From: Burkholderiales bacterium | GTDB lineage: Bacteria > Pseudomonadota > Gammaproteobacteria > Burkholderiales > Burkholderiaceae_C | DNA length: 64,000 nucleotides | Assembly: GCA_016192425.1 (NCBI GenBank) | Contig: JACPUE010000009.1 | Location: 62,001-126,000 of the forward strand | Reading direction: 5' to 3' | In this document: positions 41,775-49,895 of the stretch, one piece after another | How the letters are laid out: every line of letters starts with the position of its first letter | Position numbering within the stretch: the first letter of the stretch is position 1 | Notes under the pieces: model-generated | The model's input: only the letters and a program-made list of their open reading frames with translations | Told to the model about the DNA's origin: nothing | The model's database searches: none | Translations under genes and position numbers: made by a program

Positions 41775-43124
41775 ATGGCTAAAAAAATCTACATCAAGAC
41801 CTTCGGCTGCCAGATGAACGAGTACGACTCGGACAAGATGGTGGACGTGATGCACGCTGCCGAGGGCTACGAAACCACGCAGGACCCCGAAGAGGCCGAC
41901 CTGATCCTGTTCAACACCTGCTCGGTGCGCGAGAAGGCGCAGGAAAAGGTGTTCTCCGACCTGGGCCGCGTCAAGCACCTGAAGGAGCGCGGCGTGAAGA
42001 TCGGCGTGGGCGGCTGCGTGGCCAGCCAGGAGGGCGAGGAGATCATCAAGCGCGCGCCCTATGTGGACATCGTCTTCGGCCCGCAGACCCTGCACCGCCT
42101 GCCCGAGCTGCTGAGCGCCCGCGTGCAGCAGGACCGCCCGCAGGTGGACATCAGCTTCCCCGAGATCGAGAAGTTCGACCACCTGCCCCCGGCGCGCATG
42201 GAGGGTGCCAGCGCCTTCGTCTCCATCATGGAAGGCTGCAGCAAGTACTGCAGCTACTGCGTGGTGCCCTACACGCGCGGCGACGAGATGAGCCGCCCGT
42301 TCGACGACGTGCTGGTGGAAGTGGCCGACCTGGCCGACCAGGGTGTGAAGGAGATCACCCTGCTGGGCCAGAACGTGAACGCCTACCGCGGCGCCATGGG
42401 CGGCACCAGCGAAGTGGCCGACCTGGCGCTGCTGCTCGAATACGTGGCCGATATCCCCGGCATCGAGCGCCTGCGCTTCACCACCAGCCACCCCAACGAA
42501 TTCACGCCGCGCCTCATCGACGCCTACGCACGCATTCCCAAATTGGCCAACCACCTGCACCTGCCGGTGCAGCATGGCAGCGACCGCATCCTCATGGCCA
42601 TGAAACGCGGCTACACGGCCATGGAATACAAGAGCACGGTGCGCAAGCTGCGCGCCATCCGCCCCGACCTGGCCATGAGCAGCGACTTCATCGTCGGCTT
42701 CCCTGGCGAGACGGAGGAGGACTTCGCCAAGATGATGAAGCTCATTGACGACATCCATTTCGACAACTCGTTCAGCTTCATCTTCAGCCCGCGCCCCGGC
42801 ACGCCCGCCGCCAACCTGCACGACGACACGCCGCACGAGGTCAAGCTGCGCCGCCTGCAGGAGCTGCAGGCCGTGATCAACGGCAACATCAAGAGCATCA
42901 GCGAGGGCCTGGTAGGCAAGGTGCAGCGCATCCTGGTCGAGGGCGCCTCCAAGCGCGACAGCAACGAACTCATGGGCCGCACCGAGTGCAACCGTGTGGT
43001 CAACTTCGCCGGAGGCGCCCGTCTCATCGGGCAGATGGTGGATGTCACCGTCACCGAGGCCAAGACCTACACGCTGCGCGGCGAGGCGCACGGCATGGAA
43101 GGCGTTAACGCAGGTACGCACTGA
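41775..43124 (+). CDS. miaB: tRNA-2-methylthio-N6-dimethylallyladenosine synthase MiaB
   Basis: A 449-residue radical-SAM methylthiotransferase. The N-terminal UPF0004 domain holds the auxiliary cluster cysteines in TFGCQMN, FNTCSV and [10 protein letters not shown]. The radical-SAM CxxxCxxC is [19 protein letters not shown]-terminal TRAM domain ends the protein ([16 protein letters not shown]). It methylthiolates i6A37 in tRNAs reading UNN codons. ATG 41775 starts the family consensus [11 protein letters not shown]; upstream in-frame codons have no similarity. Confidence 0.94.
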
Positions 43125-43159
43125 ACACGGGCAATCTGTGACATACGCCACGTTTGCGC

Positions 43160-43221
43160 GATGAATGCAATTTTCATCCTCTCCACCAAAAGCACTACAT
43201 TTTCGATAGCAGCAAATGTAG
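43160..43221. promoter_or_regulatory. AT-rich intergenic stretch with two inverted repeats before the C13-peptidase cluster
   Basis: GATGAA (43160-43165) faces TTCATC (43173-43178), and CTACATTT (43195-43202) faces AAATGTAG (43214-43221). Both are in a 246-bp gap that is much more AT-rich than the window average. They may be operators or hairpins for the uncharacterised cluster downstream. No known binding-site consensus is recognised. Confidence 0.35.
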
Positions 43222-43370
43222 AAAAATAGAGCGTCACAGTGGTCTTTTACGACCAAAACAGCAGCAACACCAGCCGATAAGGCGAGCAGATGCTTTATTA
43301 CGATAGAGGGCTGCGCTATGGCTGACAGCACCGCCTGCGCCCCCTGTTCTGTTCTGGATTGAGATTGCCT

Positions 43371-44237
43371 GTGAACGCCTATCGTCTCGCCCCATCTTCG
43401 TTGCTGCGCACGCAGCGTCTGGCCCGGCTTGGTGCCGCTGCATGCGGGCTGGCGCTGACGGCTTGCACTGCCCCACCCAAGCCACCCGCACCCGAGCCAA
43501 CCCCAGCGCCTGCACCTGCACCTGCACCAGCCTCTGCCGCACCTGCACCGCGCCTGATTTTTGCGGGCTTTGCGATGCACTCGCAGTCGGATGCGTTTCG
43601 CAACGATGTGCTGGCTGCCGAAAAACTAGCCCGCGAAATTGACCCGAACGCCCTGATGCTGAAGCTGGGCAACCCCACGCGCAGGCAGACAAGCGACTGG
43701 CCCCAGGCTACCCAGGAAAACCTGGAACTGGTAATGACCAAAGTGGCCGAGGTGGCGCGGCCACAAGACCGCTTGCTGCTACTGATCTCCACACACGCCA
43801 ATCCTGGCACGCTGAACGTGCAGGCAGGCGGCAAAAACCTGCCACCGCTCACCGCACAGAATCTCAGCGCTGCCATGGCATCAGTGCAAAATATCCCGAC
43901 CATCGTTGTGCTGTCCGCCTGCTACAGCGGCTCTTTCGTCAAGCCGCTGCAGGCACCCAACCGCGTCGTGCTGGCGGCCACCGATGTGAACCGCATGTCA
44001 TTCAAGTGCCAATATCCTGCAGAGCACACCTATTTTGGTAACGCACTGTTTGGGCAAGACCAGGCAGCACAGCGCTCGGTGACGCAGTGGATGGGCACGG
44101 CCCAGAAAACCATTGAGGCGCAAGAAAAGCACAAGCGCATGCCGGCCTCCCGCCCCATCATGGCGGTAGGTGATGATGCCAAGGGCTGGGCACAACGGTC
44201 GCTGAAAGACTGGCTGCAGCCCTACGAGGCTCGGTAA
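43371..44237 (+). CDS. C13 (legumain/caspase-like) cysteine peptidase family lipoprotein
   Basis: A protein of about 288 residues. The N-terminal signal ends in the lipobox LTAC, followed by a Pro/Ala-rich linker. The rest is a clan CD peptidase core: the catalytic-type His142 in LLLISTHANPGTL and Cys184 in VVLSACYSGSF, the xACxSG pattern of legumain/caspase-fold enzymes. The usual HG after the His is HA here. GTG 43371 is chosen; TTG 43359 is also in frame. Lipidation places it on the periplasmic side of a membrane. Substrate and activation are unknown. It begins the co-directional cluster that runs to 48437. Confidence 0.65.
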   Translation: MNAYRLAPSSLLRTQRLARLGAAACGLALTACTAPPKPPAPEPTPAPAPAPAPASAAPAPRLIFAGFAMHSQSDAFRNDVLAAEKLAREIDPNALMLKLGNPTRRQTSDWPQATQENLELVMTKVAEVARPQDRLLLLISTHANPGTLNVQAGGKNLPPLTAQNLSAAMASVQNIPTIVVLSACYSGSFVKPLQAPNRVVLAATDVNRMSFKCQYPAEHTYFGNALFGQDQAAQRSVTQWMGTAQKTIEAQEKHKRMPASRPIMAVGDDAKGWAQRSLKDWLQPYEAR

Positions 44238-44338
44238 GCCACTGGCACCAGCCCCACCAAGAATCCGCCCATGCGCACAACGGCACGCATGCGGCGCCCC
44301 CAGTCTCCTGTCAACTCTTGCACACTGGATTGCACGCC

Positions 44339-46618
44339 ATGGATGCCATCACCGCAGCCCCACTGCCTGCCAACGCTTCACTGCAGGGTCCGCTGCTGGA
44401 AGCCTACCTGGACGAAGCGGAAACGCTGAGCGAACAAACATCGCCCGGTCTCAGCGACAACGAAGCACTGCGGGCGTTGCTGCATGCACAGACGATGCAA
44501 CCGCAGACGCTACCCGAGCTGTTTCGCATCTGCAATCTGTGGGTGCATACAGGCGAGCCGCAGCACGCTCTGGCCGCGCTGAATACCCATGGGGAAGCGC
44601 TGGTGCAAGACCTGCCTGCGGCCGAGCAGCACGAGGCTCGCATATCCTTGGGTTTTTACCACCTGAAGGCCACCTGCGCACAACCCGCAGACACCGCATC
44701 GATGCAAGCCTGCATGCAGGCCATGCAAACCCTGCTGACCACACCAGCGGTGGATCAGCAGTCAGACCACGCATGGGAGTACTTGCAGGCGCAGGCGGAA
44801 GAATACGGGCAGCACGACACTTGGCGCGCCTGTGTGCTGGCCCGGCACAGGCTGGCCACGGCCCAACCTGCGCGCAAGCTCTTTCGCGCCTGGGACGATG
44901 CCGTGCTGGCCCTGCGACTGGGCCAGGCATGTGCGGACCAAGGGCAATCGGCTGCAGCGCATCAGCACGCCTTGGAGGCCATTCGCAGCCTGCAACATGC
45001 CGCACCTGGGCAAGATGTGGATCATGACGACTGGCTGCGGCTGGGCGAGCGCCTGGCTACCCTGATGCCACAAGGCATGGAGACCGTGCGCCAGCAGGTG
45101 CAAGCGCGACTGCCCGCTGCCATGCCGCTGCCACAACAACGTGACGTGTGGGTGAAGATGGAACGGCTGATGGCCCAGGCCCAGCATGCGCAAGGGCAAC
45201 TGGAGCAGGCCTTGGTTCATGCCCGGGCGGGACGTTTTGGTCTAACCAGCGATTCCGGTGAAACGTTCAGCAGCCTGGTGATGGACTGGCTGATGGAGGC
45301 TGGGCGCGACGAGGATGCCGCCCAACTGGCGCTGGAGTGCATTGCCAACGAACGATCTCCCAGCGATCAGCACGCCGCCCAACGGGCCAAGGAGCACCTG
45401 GACAAAGCCGCTGCAGCCACCCCGCTGACCGCCACCTGGCACACCGCCCTGGCCTGGGCCGCGCATATGCCCGATACCGACGGGATTTGCGGCGACGAGG
45501 AGGCCAACGCCTTCAAAGAGCATCATCTGCAAATAGCCCTGGCGCTGGAGCCCCACCATCCAGGCGCATTGGCCTTGCAAGGGCTGATGGCCTATCAAAA
45601 GCGCGACTTCGGCCAAGCCCTGCCCCTGCTGGAGCGCGCCGCCCGCAATCCAGCCTTTAGCACCTGCGATGTGCTCAAGGCCCTGTGGACCTGCCGCGCC
45701 CGGCTGCACGGCATCGACAAAGCCATTCAAATGCCTTTTGTGACGGCCCAAAGCGGGGGCTGGTGCTACAACATGGGTGTGTGGATCGACATGCAATGGC
45801 AGGACGAGATGGAGATGGAGCCCTGGCCCGAGACTGCGGCGACAGACTTGGCCGCCCGCTATTACGAGCTGGGGCAACTGCACTTTGAGGCCTTTTTTGC
45901 CACGGGCGAGGGCACGTTCCGCGATGCCGACGTACATGCGTACTCCATGTTGTGCAACAACCTGGCCATCTACCGCCGCTACACCCAGCAGCAGTACGAC
46001 AAGGCCATTGAGCTGCATCGCAAAGGCCTGGACGCCAGCCCCTTTGCCGAGCACTGGGACGGGCTGATGAAGTGCCAAATCGACGCCGAGCGCAAGGCCG
46101 ACTTCATTGCCACCGCTGACACCCTGTGGCACTACGCACAAGACTATGGCTACGGACGCCACAATCCGGCCTGGTACTTCAAGCGGGTGACCACTGCGCT
46201 GTACGAACTGGACAGGGACAAGGAAATCTCTATCTGGCTGCAACGCCTGCAAGAGTGGTGGCAAGCGCTGGACAGCGATGAACGCGAAGACCCGGACACA
46301 TTGGAAGACTACCTTGGAGCGCAACTGGTGATCTTGCGCGACATGGCCTGGAGCCAGCCCGCCGATGTGCTGCTGCGACTGCAAAGCGTGCTGCCCGAAG
46401 CCCGCAAATTCCCTCTTCCCGGTGTCTGGCGGCTGGCGGGGGTGGCATTGGAGCGCGCCGGACAATTGGAGCAAGCCATGACCTGGTACGAAGACGCCCT
46501 GAAGAAAGTGCGCCCCGGCAACGAAAATGATGTCGAACAGGCCGGATACACCCGCGAAGAAATCGCGCGGTGCAAAAAGAAAATCCGGGCGGCCAAGCCC
46601 TGGTGGAAGATCTGGTAA
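44339..46618 (+). CDS. Large helical-repeat (TPR-like) protein of unknown function
   Basis: A 759-residue soluble protein, acidic and almost wholly alpha-helical in character. Degenerate TPR-type spacing shows in segments such as HHPGALALQGLMAYQKRDFGQALPLLERAA (cut here in reading at about residues 410-440), YDKAIELHRKGLDASPFAEHW and LAGVALERAGQLEQAMTWYEDALKK. No catalytic motif or signal peptide is seen. The C-terminus is basic (CKKKIRAAKPWWKIW). ATG 44339 is chosen over an upstream TTG. Its stop overlaps the next start as TAATG. It is likely a scaffold for the partners encoded beside it; function unknown. Confidence 0.6.
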   Translation: MDAITAAPLPANASLQGPLLEAYLDEAETLSEQTSPGLSDNEALRALLHAQTMQPQTLPELFRICNLWVHTGEPQHALAALNTHGEALVQDLPAAEQHEARISLGFYHLKATCAQPADTASMQACMQAMQTLLTTPAVDQQSDHAWEYLQAQAEEYGQHDTWRACVLARHRLATAQPARKLFRAWDDAVLALRLGQACADQGQSAAAHQHALEAIRSLQHAAPGQDVDHDDWLRLGERLATLMPQGMETVRQQVQARLPAAMPLPQQRDVWVKMERLMAQAQHAQGQLEQALVHARAGRFGLTSDSGETFSSLVMDWLMEAGRDEDAAQLALECIANERSPSDQHAAQRAKEHLDKAAAATPLTATWHTALAWAAHMPDTDGICGDEEANAFKEHHLQIALALEPHHPGALALQGLMAYQKRDFGQALPLLERAARNPAFSTCDVLKALWTCRARLHGIDKAIQMPFVTAQSGGWCYNMGVWIDMQWQDEMEMEPWPETAATDLAARYYELGQLHFEAFFATGEGTFRDADVHAYSMLCNNLAIYRRYTQQQYDKAIELHRKGLDASPFAEHWDGLMKCQIDAERKADFIATADTLWHYAQDYGYGRHNPAWYFKRVTTALYELDRDKEISIWLQRLQEWWQALDSDEREDPDTLEDYLGAQLVILRDMAWSQPADVLLRLQSVLPEARKFPLPGVWRLAGVALERAGQLEQAMTWYEDALKKVRPGNENDVEQAGYTREEIARCKKKIRAAKPWWKIW

Positions 46619-47736
46619 TGACAGTGCCTGCCGCATCGCACAGCAGTTATGGTGCGCGTAATGTCATCAACGCCCCGGCCTTGCGGGCGGCCATTGCGCA
46701 GCGCAGCCGTGAGCGCCAAGATGCGGCGGAGGTACAGACTTGGCTGCTGAACCATTTTTACCGGCACCTGGTGGGCAATCTGCAAGCACCCGCCCCCAGC
46801 CTGCAGCCAGTGGCAACGCTGGAGCAGGCCCAAACCCTGCTGCGCCCGGCACCGCTGCCCGCGTGGATCGGGCCGCGTCTGAAAAACGCCGACAGCTCCC
46901 CCCTGTGGTGGCTTGACCCCCAAGCCCCCGAGGTACTGGCGCTGGAGACCCGGCTGGTCGAGTTTTTACAGTCGCGCCAGGGCACACCGCTACAGGGCAA
47001 GCTGCAGCGCATCAACGCCCCGCAGGCGATGGCCCTGTGGGACGCCGAGCACGCTACCATGCATGCCAAGGCCGCTGCGGGCTGGCGCGAGCACTGTCCC
47101 GATGCCGTGCGCGAGGTGTGCGCTTTTGCAACGGGCCGCTTTGTCGAACTGCGCCCTGAGAGCCCCCACCTGCGTGAGGAAATGGCCTACGAGAGCCAGA
47201 TGATGCGCCACTGCCTGGGGCAGTTTGCCACGCGCCGCACCCTCAGCGGTGGCTACGGCGAGCAATATGCCAGCGCCTGCGAACAAGGCCGCATGCGGCT
47301 GTTTTCATTTCGCAGTGCGCAGGGCGCGCCGCACATCACCATCAGCGCACACACAGAGGCCGACGGCACACTGCGCATCGACCAGATCAAGGGCAAGCAA
47401 AACCGGGCCCCAATCGCCCGGTATCGCGAAGAAGTGCTGACACTGCTGAACCTGCTGCCCACCACCAACCCCACCCCGGCCGATGCGCTGGCCATGGGCG
47501 TTGCGCGCACTGCCAAGGGCTGGCAGGCGGTATCCAACATCACCGATGATGCCGAGCAGTTGGCGCTGGTACGCCAGCAGCCCGCCCTGGTGCGAGAGCT
47601 GCCACCAGCCGCGGCCCTGGTGCACTGGGTGGTGGCCGCCCAACGCCCCGAATTACTGGATGGCCTGACGCTGACGCCCGCGCTGCAACAGGCCCTGGAA
47701 CTGGCGGCCCACACATCGCCAGGAGGGGCGGCGTAA
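46618..47736 (+). CDS. PcfJ-like domain protein of unknown function
   Basis: A 372-residue soluble protein. The recognisable part, about residues 190-275, resembles the PcfJ-like domain: MRHCLGQFATRR (compare the H-C-x-G core), then GRMRLFSFRSAQGAPHITIS and RIDQIKGKQNRAPIARYRE. This combination is found in uncharacterised chromosomal and plasmid proteins and I know of no biochemical function. The N-terminal 150 residues are helical and carry no known motif. Both ends overlap the neighbours as TAATG, so it is translationally coupled to the TPR-like and DUF1266 genes. Confidence 0.55.
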   Translation: MTVPAASHSSYGARNVINAPALRAAIAQRSRERQDAAEVQTWLLNHFYRHLVGNLQAPAPSLQPVATLEQAQTLLRPAPLPAWIGPRLKNADSSPLWWLDPQAPEVLALETRLVEFLQSRQGTPLQGKLQRINAPQAMALWDAEHATMHAKAAAGWREHCPDAVREVCAFATGRFVELRPESPHLREEMAYESQMMRHCLGQFATRRTLSGGYGEQYASACEQGRMRLFSFRSAQGAPHITISAHTEADGTLRIDQIKGKQNRAPIARYREEVLTLLNLLPTTNPTPADALAMGVARTAKGWQAVSNITDDAEQLALVRQQPALVRELPPAAALVHWVVAAQRPELLDGLTLTPALQQALELAAHTSPGGAA

Positions 47737-48437
47737 TGGGCACCTTCATTCTGGGCTTGGTCTGCTGGCTGCTGCTGTGGCTGGCATGGCGCGTGGTGCG
47801 CTGGATGCTGGGTCCGTTTCTGCGCTGGTACGCACGCCCCCGCCAACGCCGCCAATACGTGCTGCCCGCCCACTGGAACTGGACGCTGGCACTGGCCGAT
47901 CCGATGGCCTTTGCCCAGATCCAGGGCGGCTTTGCGGACGCCCGCATGCCCAGCCTGCGCTCCGAACTGCAAAGCAGCCTGCGCCCGGCCCTGCTACACC
48001 AGCTGGGCCTGCGCGCCGACATGATCGATGCACAGATTCAGGATGCCCTTCCACGACGCCTGCGCGCACACTGGTTTCGGCTGGACCTGGACACCCTGCA
48101 CAAAGACGACGACGCCCGCGACGCCTTGGCACTGGCCTGCGCACGCGTGGCATTTGCTGTGCGCACTGCAGCCCTCCTGGGATGGATTGACGCCGACACA
48201 CAGTGGGAGCTACTGCACCACAATGCCCTGCGCGCAAGCGAATGCTTTGACAGTTGGAGCGACTACGGCCATGCCCTGGCCCGAGGCCGCCAGCAGTGGA
48301 TTGCCAAGGGCCGTGCGGACAGCCTGGGCTGCGCATTCACCCCAGCCGATGTGAACGCTTGGCTGGCCAACCGGGATCATCCCTGGCACTGGCTGCCCTG
48401 GCCCCTGCCGACGCCCCCCGAGCGCCCCCAGCGCTGA
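47736..48437 (+). CDS. DUF1266 domain protein with N-terminal membrane anchor
   Basis: A 233-residue protein. A hydrophobic segment (about residues 3-25, LGLVCWLLLWLAWRVVRWML) is followed by a basic stretch and then a DUF1266-type C-terminal domain: DALALACARVAFAVRTAALLGWID, ASECFDSWSDYGHALARGRQQW and a final W-rich tail. A strong Shine-Dalgarno AGGAGGGG (47721-47728) lies within the previous gene, whose stop overlaps this start. DUF1266 has no established function. It ends the cluster; ffh is convergent after 69 bp. Confidence 0.65.
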   Translation: MGTFILGLVCWLLLWLAWRVVRWMLGPFLRWYARPRQRRQYVLPAHWNWTLALADPMAFAQIQGGFADARMPSLRSELQSSLRPALLHQLGLRADMIDAQIQDALPRRLRAHWFRLDLDTLHKDDDARDALALACARVAFAVRTAALLGWIDADTQWELLHHNALRASECFDSWSDYGHALARGRQQWIAKGRADSLGCAFTPADVNAWLANRDHPWHWLPWPLPTPPERPQR

Positions 48438-48462
48438 ATTGCAAGCTTTTCAAGCTGCTCCC

Positions 48463-48505
48463 GCTCAGCCAGTTTTATTTTTTAGCTACAAAAACAGTAG
48501 CAGAA
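48463..48505 (-). repeat. Partial family A-like repeat at the ffh 3' end
   Basis: On the minus strand GCTAC-TGTTTTT-GTAGC directly follows the ffh stop. It resembles the GCTAT/ATAGC hairpin of family A copies. The second hairpin is poorly conserved. The A-rich side after the stem on the minus strand argues against an ordinary terminator for ffh. Confidence 0.35.
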
Positions 48506-48506
48506 C

Positions 48507-49895
48507 TCAGCGAGGGCCGCCAAAAGGCATCTTGGGCATGCCGCCGCCCAGGCCTTTCATGCCGCCCATGCGCTTCATGAGCTTCATGAGGCCGCCGCCC
48601 TTCATCTTCTTCATCATGTCCTGCATCTGCTCGAATTCCTTGAGCAGGCGGTTGACATCGTGCACCTGCACCCCGGCGCCTGCGGCAATGCGCTTCTTGC
48701 GCGTGGCCTTGATGAGCTCGGGCTTGCGGCGCTCCAGCGGAGTCATGCTCTGGATGATGCCTTCCTTGCGCTTGATGTCCTTCTCGGCCTTGTCCAGGTC
48801 CACCTGACCGGCCTTGGCCGTGAGCTGCGCGGGCAGCTTGTCCATGAGGCTCGACAACCCGCCCATCTGCTTCATCTGCTGGAGCTGGCCCAAGAAGTCG
48901 TTGAGGTCGAAGCCGTCGCCGCTCTTGACCTTGGCGGCGAGCTTCTGCGCAGCCTCCATGTCCACGCCCGCGGCCACCTGTTCGACCAGGGCCACGATAT
49001 CGCCCATGCCCAGGATGCGGCCGGCATGGCGCTCAGCGTCGAACACCTCCAGGCCGTCGATTTTTTCGGACACGCCCGCGAACTTGATCGGCGCGCCCGT
49101 GATGGCGCGCACCGACAGCGCCGCACCGCCGCGCGAGTCGCCGTCCAGCTTGGTCAGCACGATGCCGGTGAGCGGCAGCGCCTCCTTGAATGCCTTGGCG
49201 GTGTTCACCGCGTCCTGGCCCTGCATGGCGTCGACGACGAACAGGGTCTCGACCGGGTTCAGCGTGGCGTGCAGGTCCTTGATTTCCTGCATCAGCACCT
49301 CGTCGATGGCCAGGCGGCCGGCGGTGTCGACCAGCAGCACGTCGAAGTAATGCTTCTTGGCATAGTCCAGCGCCGCCACGGCGATGTCGTGGGGCTTCTG
49401 GTCGGGCGTGCTCGGGAACCACTCGGCACCCGCCTGCCTGGTCACGGTCTTGAGCTGCTCGATGGCCGCCGGGCGGTACACGTCGCCGGACACGGTCAGC
49501 ACCTTCTTCTTGCGCTTTTCGATCAGGTGCTTGGCTAATTTTGCCGTGGTGGTGGTCTTGCCCGCACCCTGCAGGCCGGCCATCAGGATCACGGCGGGCG
49601 GCTGGGCGGCGAGGTTGATGTCGCTCACCCCCTCGCCCATGGTGGCGGCCAGCTCGCGGTTGACGATGCCCACCAGCGCCTGGCCCGGCTTGAGCGAGCC
49701 CAGCACCTCCTGGCCCAGCGCCTTTTCCTTGACGCGGGCGATGAAGTCGCGCACCACGGGCAGGGCCACGTCGGCTTCGAGCAGGGCCATGCGCACCTCG
49801 CGCAGCATGTCCTGCACGTTGGATTCGGTGATGCGGGCCTGGCCGCGCATCTCCTTGACGAGGCGCGAGAGTTTTTCGGTAAGGGCGGAGGCCAT
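48507..49895 (-). CDS. ffh: Signal recognition particle protein Ffh
   Basis: A 462-residue SRP54 GTPase. The N domain is followed by the G domain (GLQGAGKTTTTAKLAKHL near residue 108, DTAGRL, TKLDGDSRGGAAL) and the methionine-rich M domain (about 300 onward), ending in GGGMPKMPFGGPR. Ffh binds signal sequences and 4.5S RNA and delivers ribosomes to FtsY. ATG 49895 begins the consensus MASALTEKLSRLVKEMRG; a much longer open frame upstream has no similarity and overlaps the divergent gene. Confidence 0.95.
   Translation of the reverse strand: MASALTEKLSRLVKEMRGQARITESNVQDMLREVRMALLEADVALPVVRDFIARVKEKALGQEVLGSLKPGQALVGIVNRELAATMGEGVSDINLAAQPPAVILMAGLQGAGKTTTTAKLAKHLIEKRKKKVLTVSGDVYRPAAIEQLKTVTRQAGAEWFPSTPDQKPHDIAVAALDYAKKHYFDVLLVDTAGRLAIDEVLMQEIKDLHATLNPVETLFVVDAMQGQDAVNTAKAFKEALPLTGIVLTKLDGDSRGGAALSVRAITGAPIKFAGVSEKIDGLEVFDAERHAGRILGMGDIVALVEQVAAGVDMEAAQKLAAKVKSGDGFDLNDFLGQLQQMKQMGGLSSLMDKLPAQLTAKAGQVDLDKAEKDIKRKEGIIQSMTPLERRKPELIKATRKKRIAAGAGVQVHDVNRLLKEFEQMQDMMKKMKGGGLMKLMKRMGGMKGLGGGMPKMPFGGPR

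Follow-up and report, generated by a model that had tools for sequence, protein, structure and literature searches.

A conserved trio of PcfJ-like, DUF1266 and helical-partner genes that probably encodes a membrane-anchored protein machine

Between the genes miaB and ffh of a Burkholderiales bacterium (NCBI GenBank assembly GCA_016192425.1), four co-directional genes encode a C13-family lipoprotein, a TPR-like helical protein (TPR-W), a PcfJ-like protein and a DUF1266 protein. They lie in a stretch of 64,000 nucleotides (contig JACPUE010000009.1, positions 62,001 to 126,000 of the forward strand), which is referred to as a whole as the window. A preliminary description of the window had presented the four genes as one cluster, had placed the products of the last three in a single complex and had doubted the membership of the C13 gene. 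The locus raises the question which of these genes belong together and what their products could do jointly. We find that the TPR-like, PcfJ and DUF1266 genes, here called the trio, form a real, conserved unit that recurs in only distantly related bacteria, in some cases with genes fused, and that the C13 gene is a local neighbour. Judged from sequence comparison, the products of the trio probably make one membrane-anchored protein machine.

Conservation of the trio and its gene fusions

Co-occurrence was followed in 57 loci with a PcfJ relative (L008-L064), made up of five earlier stretches and 52 loci from a scan of 84,980 species genomes; two genomes are included twice (L010/L035 and L011/L036). 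The DUF1266 gene is the next frame after PcfJ, or is fused to it, in 56 of the 57 loci (54 of 55 distinct ones), and the sole locus without it (L012) ends at a contig edge. Before profile iteration, DUF1266 relatives were recognized at 51 loci, and afterwards at 56. Adjacency, for which the preliminary description had proposed a genome search, is conserved.

A helical partner is present wherever the sequence reaches, either as TPR-W, as DUF4034, or as a DUF4034-like tail on the DUF1266 protein in three Campylobacterota. TPR-W stands upstream of PcfJ in 34/57 loci, giving the order TPR-PcfJ-DUF1266 in Comamonadaceae, Tahibacter and others. DUF4034 stands downstream in 17/57, giving the order PcfJ-DUF1266-DUF4034 in Burkholderia, Variovorax, Klebsiella, Superficieibacter and Rhizobium. 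The two partners are never found together. At the remaining loci, the contig begins at PcfJ (L033) or stops at or just past DUF1266 (L058, L061). The DUF4034 gene of a Klebsiella oxytoca assembly (L055:11910-14027) is broken into two frames and is likely a pseudogene or an assembly error.

The same association is seen within the family of the window's organism, for which 250 genomes were searched (sampling was by genus and sparse in places). PcfJ matches were found in six genomes, the window's own included. Strong matches to TPR-W (E below 1e-260) occur in these six and in no others, and three further matches are weak. Five of the six carry a strong DUF1266 match and the sixth reaches a contig end; weaker DUF1266 matches occur in G020 (2.6e-14) and G024 (9e-4). 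Divergence is correlated between PcfJ and DUF1266 (r=0.958, 40 loci) and between PcfJ and TPR-W (0.955, 21 loci), values that are uncorrected for shared ancestry and carry little weight.

Two kinds of fused frame were identified. PcfJ and DUF1266 form a single frame of 637 amino acids in one Rhizobium (L063), and the DUF1266 proteins of three Campylobacterota (L059, L060, L062) carry a tail with two DUF4034-like motifs in order. Under a broad DUF4034 model these tails score 15.9, 15.7 and 8.9 bits, against 5.2 for the best shuffled tail. Gene fusions are usually taken to mark contacts, and on this view PcfJ touches DUF1266 and DUF1266 touches the solenoid. The predicted complex of the three proteins is well supported by linkage and fusions.

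In the window itself, coordinates and sequence agree with the layout given in the preliminary description, with the last three genes joined by two TAATG stop-start overlaps (Table 1), in context CTGGTAATGACAGT and GGCGTAATGGGCAC. The coupling recurs elsewhere: in 39 of 55 other loci the PcfJ stop is overlapped by a start codon in the DUF1266 frame, and in 22 of 31 the TPR stop is overlapped by one in the PcfJ frame, counts for which no chance level was computed. Start codons of the relatives were picked by our own rule. The unity of the last three genes thus finds support beyond what the window alone shows, in adjacency across distant bacteria, in co-occurrence and in fused frames.

Table 1. 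Features of the locus, in window positions
Feature	Position	Strand	Basis and remarks
C13-family lipoprotein gene	43371..44237	+	Pfam Peptidase_C13; adjoins the trio locally without being conserved with it
TPR-like helical scaffold protein, 759 amino acids (TPR-W)	44339..46618	+	Weak TPR matches; homologue directly upstream of PcfJ in relatives
PcfJ-like protein, 372 amino acids; C-terminal PcfJ-type domain, N-terminal region without Pfam match	46618..47736	+	46-protein alignment; pattern of pCF10 PcfJ
DUF1266 protein, 233 amino acids; N-terminal hydrophobic segment followed by basic residues	47736..48437	+	Pfam; hydrophobicity of homologues; adjoins PcfJ in relatives
TAATG stop-start overlap, TPR to PcfJ	46616..46620	+	Sequence
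TAATG stop-start overlap, PcfJ to DUF1266	47734..47738	+	Sequence

The four-gene stretch is flanked by the end of miaB at 43124 and by ffh, which runs on the - strand and stops at 48507. The gap from miaB to the C13 gene (43125-43370) is AT-rich by eye, and a promoter and terminator scan of 43080-48560 gave nothing above chance and no sigma-70-like site. The guanine-plus-cytosine content across the locus is fairly even (0.58 to 0.69), and there is therefore no sign of recent import. NCBIfam and PHROGs returned weak or chance-level matches only for the four window proteins.

Protein families and a proposed membrane-tethered complex

The window PcfJ-like protein is, by its motifs, a distant PcfJ member. 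Its match to Pfam PcfJ (PF14284; 8.7e-4, 19.6 bits) stays under the gathering cut-off of 25 bits; the E. coli trio member passes it with 26.2 bits, and 37 of the 46 aligned PcfJ relatives match at E-values up to 0.1. PF14284 was found in 3 of 150 genomes of the phylum, and the model is evidently insensitive here, since the trio-bearing G128 has no match to it. In the 46-protein alignment (45 relatives and the window's protein), H198, C199, R232, T241 and QIKGKQN (256-262) are invariant. The window protein thus contains both the conserved His-Cys motif, given as HCV in the PcfJ family description, and the Q.xGK.N region. No Pfam match was obtained for its N-terminal half, and profiles of PcfJ and DUF1266 retrieved no relatives of solved structure at E up to 10.

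By eye, PcfJ of pCF10 shares the C-terminal pattern RHC[VL]G ... R ... P..T ... QI[QK]GK.N, in its own version as RHCVG followed by QIQGKCN. It differs in setting, as its gene lies on a conjugative plasmid beside an AcrIIA9-family gene, and the stretch as listed names no DUF1266 gene. The annotation of the gene directly adjoining pcfJ is that of an AcrIIA9-family Cas9 inhibitor (L142:20874-22984).

The DUF1266 protein matches Pfam PF06889 above the cut-off of 27 bits (4.2e-11, 43.8 bits), over model positions 84-175 only. Under a strict rule, an N-terminal hydrophobic segment is present in 31 of 55 DUF1266 proteins, and in at least L048 the chosen start codon cut such a segment off. In the window protein, arginines come after the segment; with basic residues following the N-terminal helix, the soluble domain should therefore face the cytosol. 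DUF1266 also occurs in 7 of 170 genomes of the phylum; in five of them the trio is missing from that place and a single frame contains two DUF1266 matches (L158, L159, L160, L161, L162). No coupled helical partner was seen by eye at these five loci. An NlpC/P60-like lipoprotein gene is next or close to the two-match protein in L158, L160 and L161 (by eye).

For TPR-W, the repeats recognized stay under the Pfam cut-offs (best TPR_2, 21.3 versus 27 bits), which places the protein outside the TPR superfamily when at least one repeat over the cut-off is taken as its mark. TPR-W has no Pfam match to DUF4034 (PF13226), its genome has no DUF4034 match at all, and a relation between the two was not detected (hhalign probability 1.8). 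DUF4034 was found in 14 of 398 genomes of the phylum; for 12 of these 14, a search of longer flanks with the trio profiles recovered neither PcfJ nor DUF1266 relatives, and DUF4034 is therefore not tied to the trio.

A known arrangement with some likeness to the trio is found in E. coli K-12, where the pairs ybeR-djlB and ybeU-djlC, next to hscC, each overlap by four bases (L135:3712-8664). As in the trio, a DUF1266 gene overlaps the gene of a larger partner, and one partner, DjlB, has a strongly hydrophobic C-terminal segment. This segment lies on DjlB in K-12 (none is strong in YbeR), whereas it lies on DUF1266 in the trio, and the K-12 partners are J-domain proteins and Hsp70 instead of PcfJ and TPR/DUF4034. 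In Dickeya, hscC, a J-protein gene and a DUF1266 gene are listed with consecutive numbers (PMC6329079), and in G020, from the family of the window's organism, a DUF1266 frame shortly follows an Hsp70-like frame (L141:2702-6376; by eye). These settings of DUF1266 give a hint of function. The four window proteins gave no J-domain or Hsp70 match in Pfam and fall outside the HscC-DjlC type.

Taken together, we lean, with somewhat better than even confidence, towards the trio being a single module, coupled in translation, whose products form a complex tethered to the membrane. The most likely role of this complex is that of an accessory regulator, similar to a co-chaperone or adaptor, on the cytosolic side of the envelope. 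The hydrophobic DUF1266 segment and the fusions suggest a platform in the membrane to which a PcfJ effector and a helical client-binding protein are attached. DUF1266 would be the inner-membrane anchor and platform, with its soluble domain facing the cytosol. The PcfJ-like protein would likely be the effector or catalytic subunit, acting through the invariant His-Cys pair and QIKGKQN, and the TPR-like protein, whose place is taken by a DUF4034 solenoid in other lineages, would recruit clients. Such a complex would work like the DUF1266/J-protein/HscC arrangement without being one. The biochemical part of this proposal is a weak suggestion.

Several observations weigh against the proposed complex. 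Only 2 of 274 class genomes match an alignment profile, which makes the trio rare, and the scan of 84,980 genomes used patterns of the window's PcfJ protein and so favours near relatives. The third partner is not a single family, as no relation between TPR-W and DUF4034 could be detected. The DUF4034-like tails score only 7.2, 6.5 and 6.2 bits under a module-only model, against 5.9 for the best shuffled tail; hhalign with the whole protein is weak (E 0.001, probability 21.5), and L060 has no Pfam DUF4034 match. The strict hydrophobicity rule fails in 24 of the 55 DUF1266 proteins. Since DUF1266 and DUF4034 proteins are also found where PcfJ is absent, the linkage holds only as seen from this PcfJ subfamily. 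The parallel with chaperones is an analogy through DUF1266 alone, and other DUF1266 proteins stand without such partners. In the open-access literature, finally, we found no paper on the three genes as a unit and no operon-level experiment.

Genomic sites and rival explanations

The trio varies in presence and keeps to particular places. MiaB and/or ffh lie inside the fetched stretch in 28 of the 57 loci, and both in 14. MiaB is not always adjacent, being some kilobases away in L009, L030 and L038. In two same-genus genomes, the matches to miaB and ffh end about 240 to 340 bases apart with no trio match between them. Among complete E. coli genomes, 297 of 5426 carry the trio (at least 80% coverage), always on the chromosome and in single copy; strains named UTI89, CFT073, 536 and Nissle are among them. 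In both E. coli genomes inspected, yegQ flanks the trio on one side and yegP-baeRS on the other. In two Salmonella records that carry the label of plasmids, the trio comes after baeR, and in one of them yegQ directly follows it. These records (L083, L163) are 300-500 kb long and carry mdtBC-baeSR and the trio, so that they resemble chromosomal fragments. In the Salmonella stretches L163:5992-11509 and L083:9194-12756, one has the trio from baeR to yegQ, the site of an S. Typhi immunity islet, and another has a TPR gene of 239 amino acids right after DUF4034.

The preliminary description had also asked whether the locus varies between strains. It does so by presence and absence, both in E. coli and in the miaB-ffh gap of same-genus genomes, while the site itself is stable. 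We read the trio as a chromosomal unit that is accessory yet stable in its site, and not as a mobile defence island. By profile and annotation, the genes at the yegQ locus of E. coli and Salmonella contain the same PcfJ and DUF1266 pair as the window; they differ in the third gene, which is DUF4034 and downstream instead of TPR-W and upstream. The literature passages that mention these genes give no account of them as a unit, and for DUF4034 no paper was found in the open-access literature.

Single genes of the locus do appear in published work. In S. Typhi, a putative orphan immunity gene islet is described as inserted between yegQ and a gene of about 700 amino acids and unknown function, STM2135 in LT2 (PMC7400221). 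From the Infantis gene order, as opposed to LT2 sequence, STM2135 should encode the DUF4034 protein, and STM2133 and STM2134 would then correspond to PcfJ and DUF1266. An STM2133 deletion is listed among hypermotile mutants, with swimming at 1.08 and swarming at 1.55 of wild type, in a text copy that has lost its significance marks (PMC4219756). STM2135 is called an inner membrane protein in PMC3420936. Two further papers, for which we draw no link to the trio, list a DUF1266 gene that goes up in strain 042 when hns or hns2 is mutated (PMC7582179) and name K-12 YnjI as a DUF1266 protein (PMC10044804).

The widest alternative takes all four genes, C13 lipoprotein included, as one functional unit spanning the envelope. 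The C13 assignment is confirmed: the protein matches Pfam Peptidase_C13 (PF01650) at 7.4e-13 and 49.1 bits, over the cut-off of 22.8, and an LTAC lipobox and ISTH and LSACYSG stretches were read by eye, the latter two being what we take to be the His and Cys motifs of peptidase C13. An NCBIfam caspase model matches it weakly (4e-4). Its gene lies directly upstream of the trio in the window and in 3 of the 57 fetched loci, all Acidovorax, where miaB is absent from the fetched stretch. It was not found beside the trio in the other 54, some of which (such as L013 and L016) have no upstream sequence to judge. C13 relatives occur in 67 of the 250 family genomes, in part through low-complexity stretches, against six with PcfJ, and they adjoin the trio only in the window's own genome. 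In addition, the C13 stop and the TPR start are 101 bases apart and the C13 product is a predicted lipoprotein. The idea that C13 peptidases travel with the trio is not borne out, the scattered distribution of C13 vindicates the earlier doubt over its membership, and C13 as a fourth member was rejected. We regard an envelope-spanning four-gene unit as very improbable. Quite improbable, if less so, is that the trio genes are simply co-transcribed while each product acts separately. In its favour, stop-start overlaps are common in compact bacterial operons. Against it, the genes stay adjacent in distant bacteria even where their order or their genomic site has changed, and there are fused frames of two kinds.

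Another reading, which we consider rather unlikely, makes the trio an undescribed anti-phage or interbacterial defence module, with the PcfJ-like protein as a toxic effector at the membrane, sensed and held by the scaffold and DUF1266. Patchy presence in the family and in E. coli would fit it, as would the PcfJ-domain protein encoded by the conjugative plasmid pCF10 and the putative orphan-immunity islet described in S. Typhi, between yegQ and what should by Infantis gene order be DUF4034. Against this, the four window proteins match no family of PADLOC (library of 2023) at E up to 1, none of 50,697 phage records has a tblastn match to the window or E. coli PcfJ, and 8 of 72,556 plasmid records match, all rated non-mobilizable. 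The chromosomal site is, moreover, constant within groups. Neighbouring genes were examined as 139 of 187 selected open reading frames (ORFs) from 11 of 14 chosen loci, called with our own simple caller; L031, L082 and L084 and seven further ORFs were left out. In favour of defence, PADLOC models matched some neighbours at E up to 1e-10 (mad3 in five, mad8 in three, and RtcR-type, PDC-S01 and AriA in one each; the identities of these proteins are unchecked); against it, the commonest Pfam families, among the first 25 of 136, belong to transport, regulation and metabolism. The defence or secretion neighbourhood that the preliminary description had proposed to check for is not supported by what was scanned, and the reading of the trio as part of a defence island has little support.

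What the trio would mean

A bolder version of the membrane-tethered module, which we put forward only as a doubtful possibility, somewhat ahead of a defence role, is that the PcfJ-type domain with its invariant His-Cys/QIKGKQN site represents a new enzyme activity. DUF1266 would fix it to the inner membrane and exchangeable helical scaffolds would direct it. The trio would then be an undescribed kind of membrane-tethered molecular machine, with a range that extends from Campylobacterota to E. coli and Salmonella.

With the trio defined, three separate families of unknown function (PcfJ, DUF1266 and DUF4034) become one testable unit, in which natural fusions suggest who touches whom. The trio falls in E. 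coli and Salmonella lineages, where gene removal is routine, and it provides a concrete handle on the role of the PcfJ domain outside conjugative plasmids.

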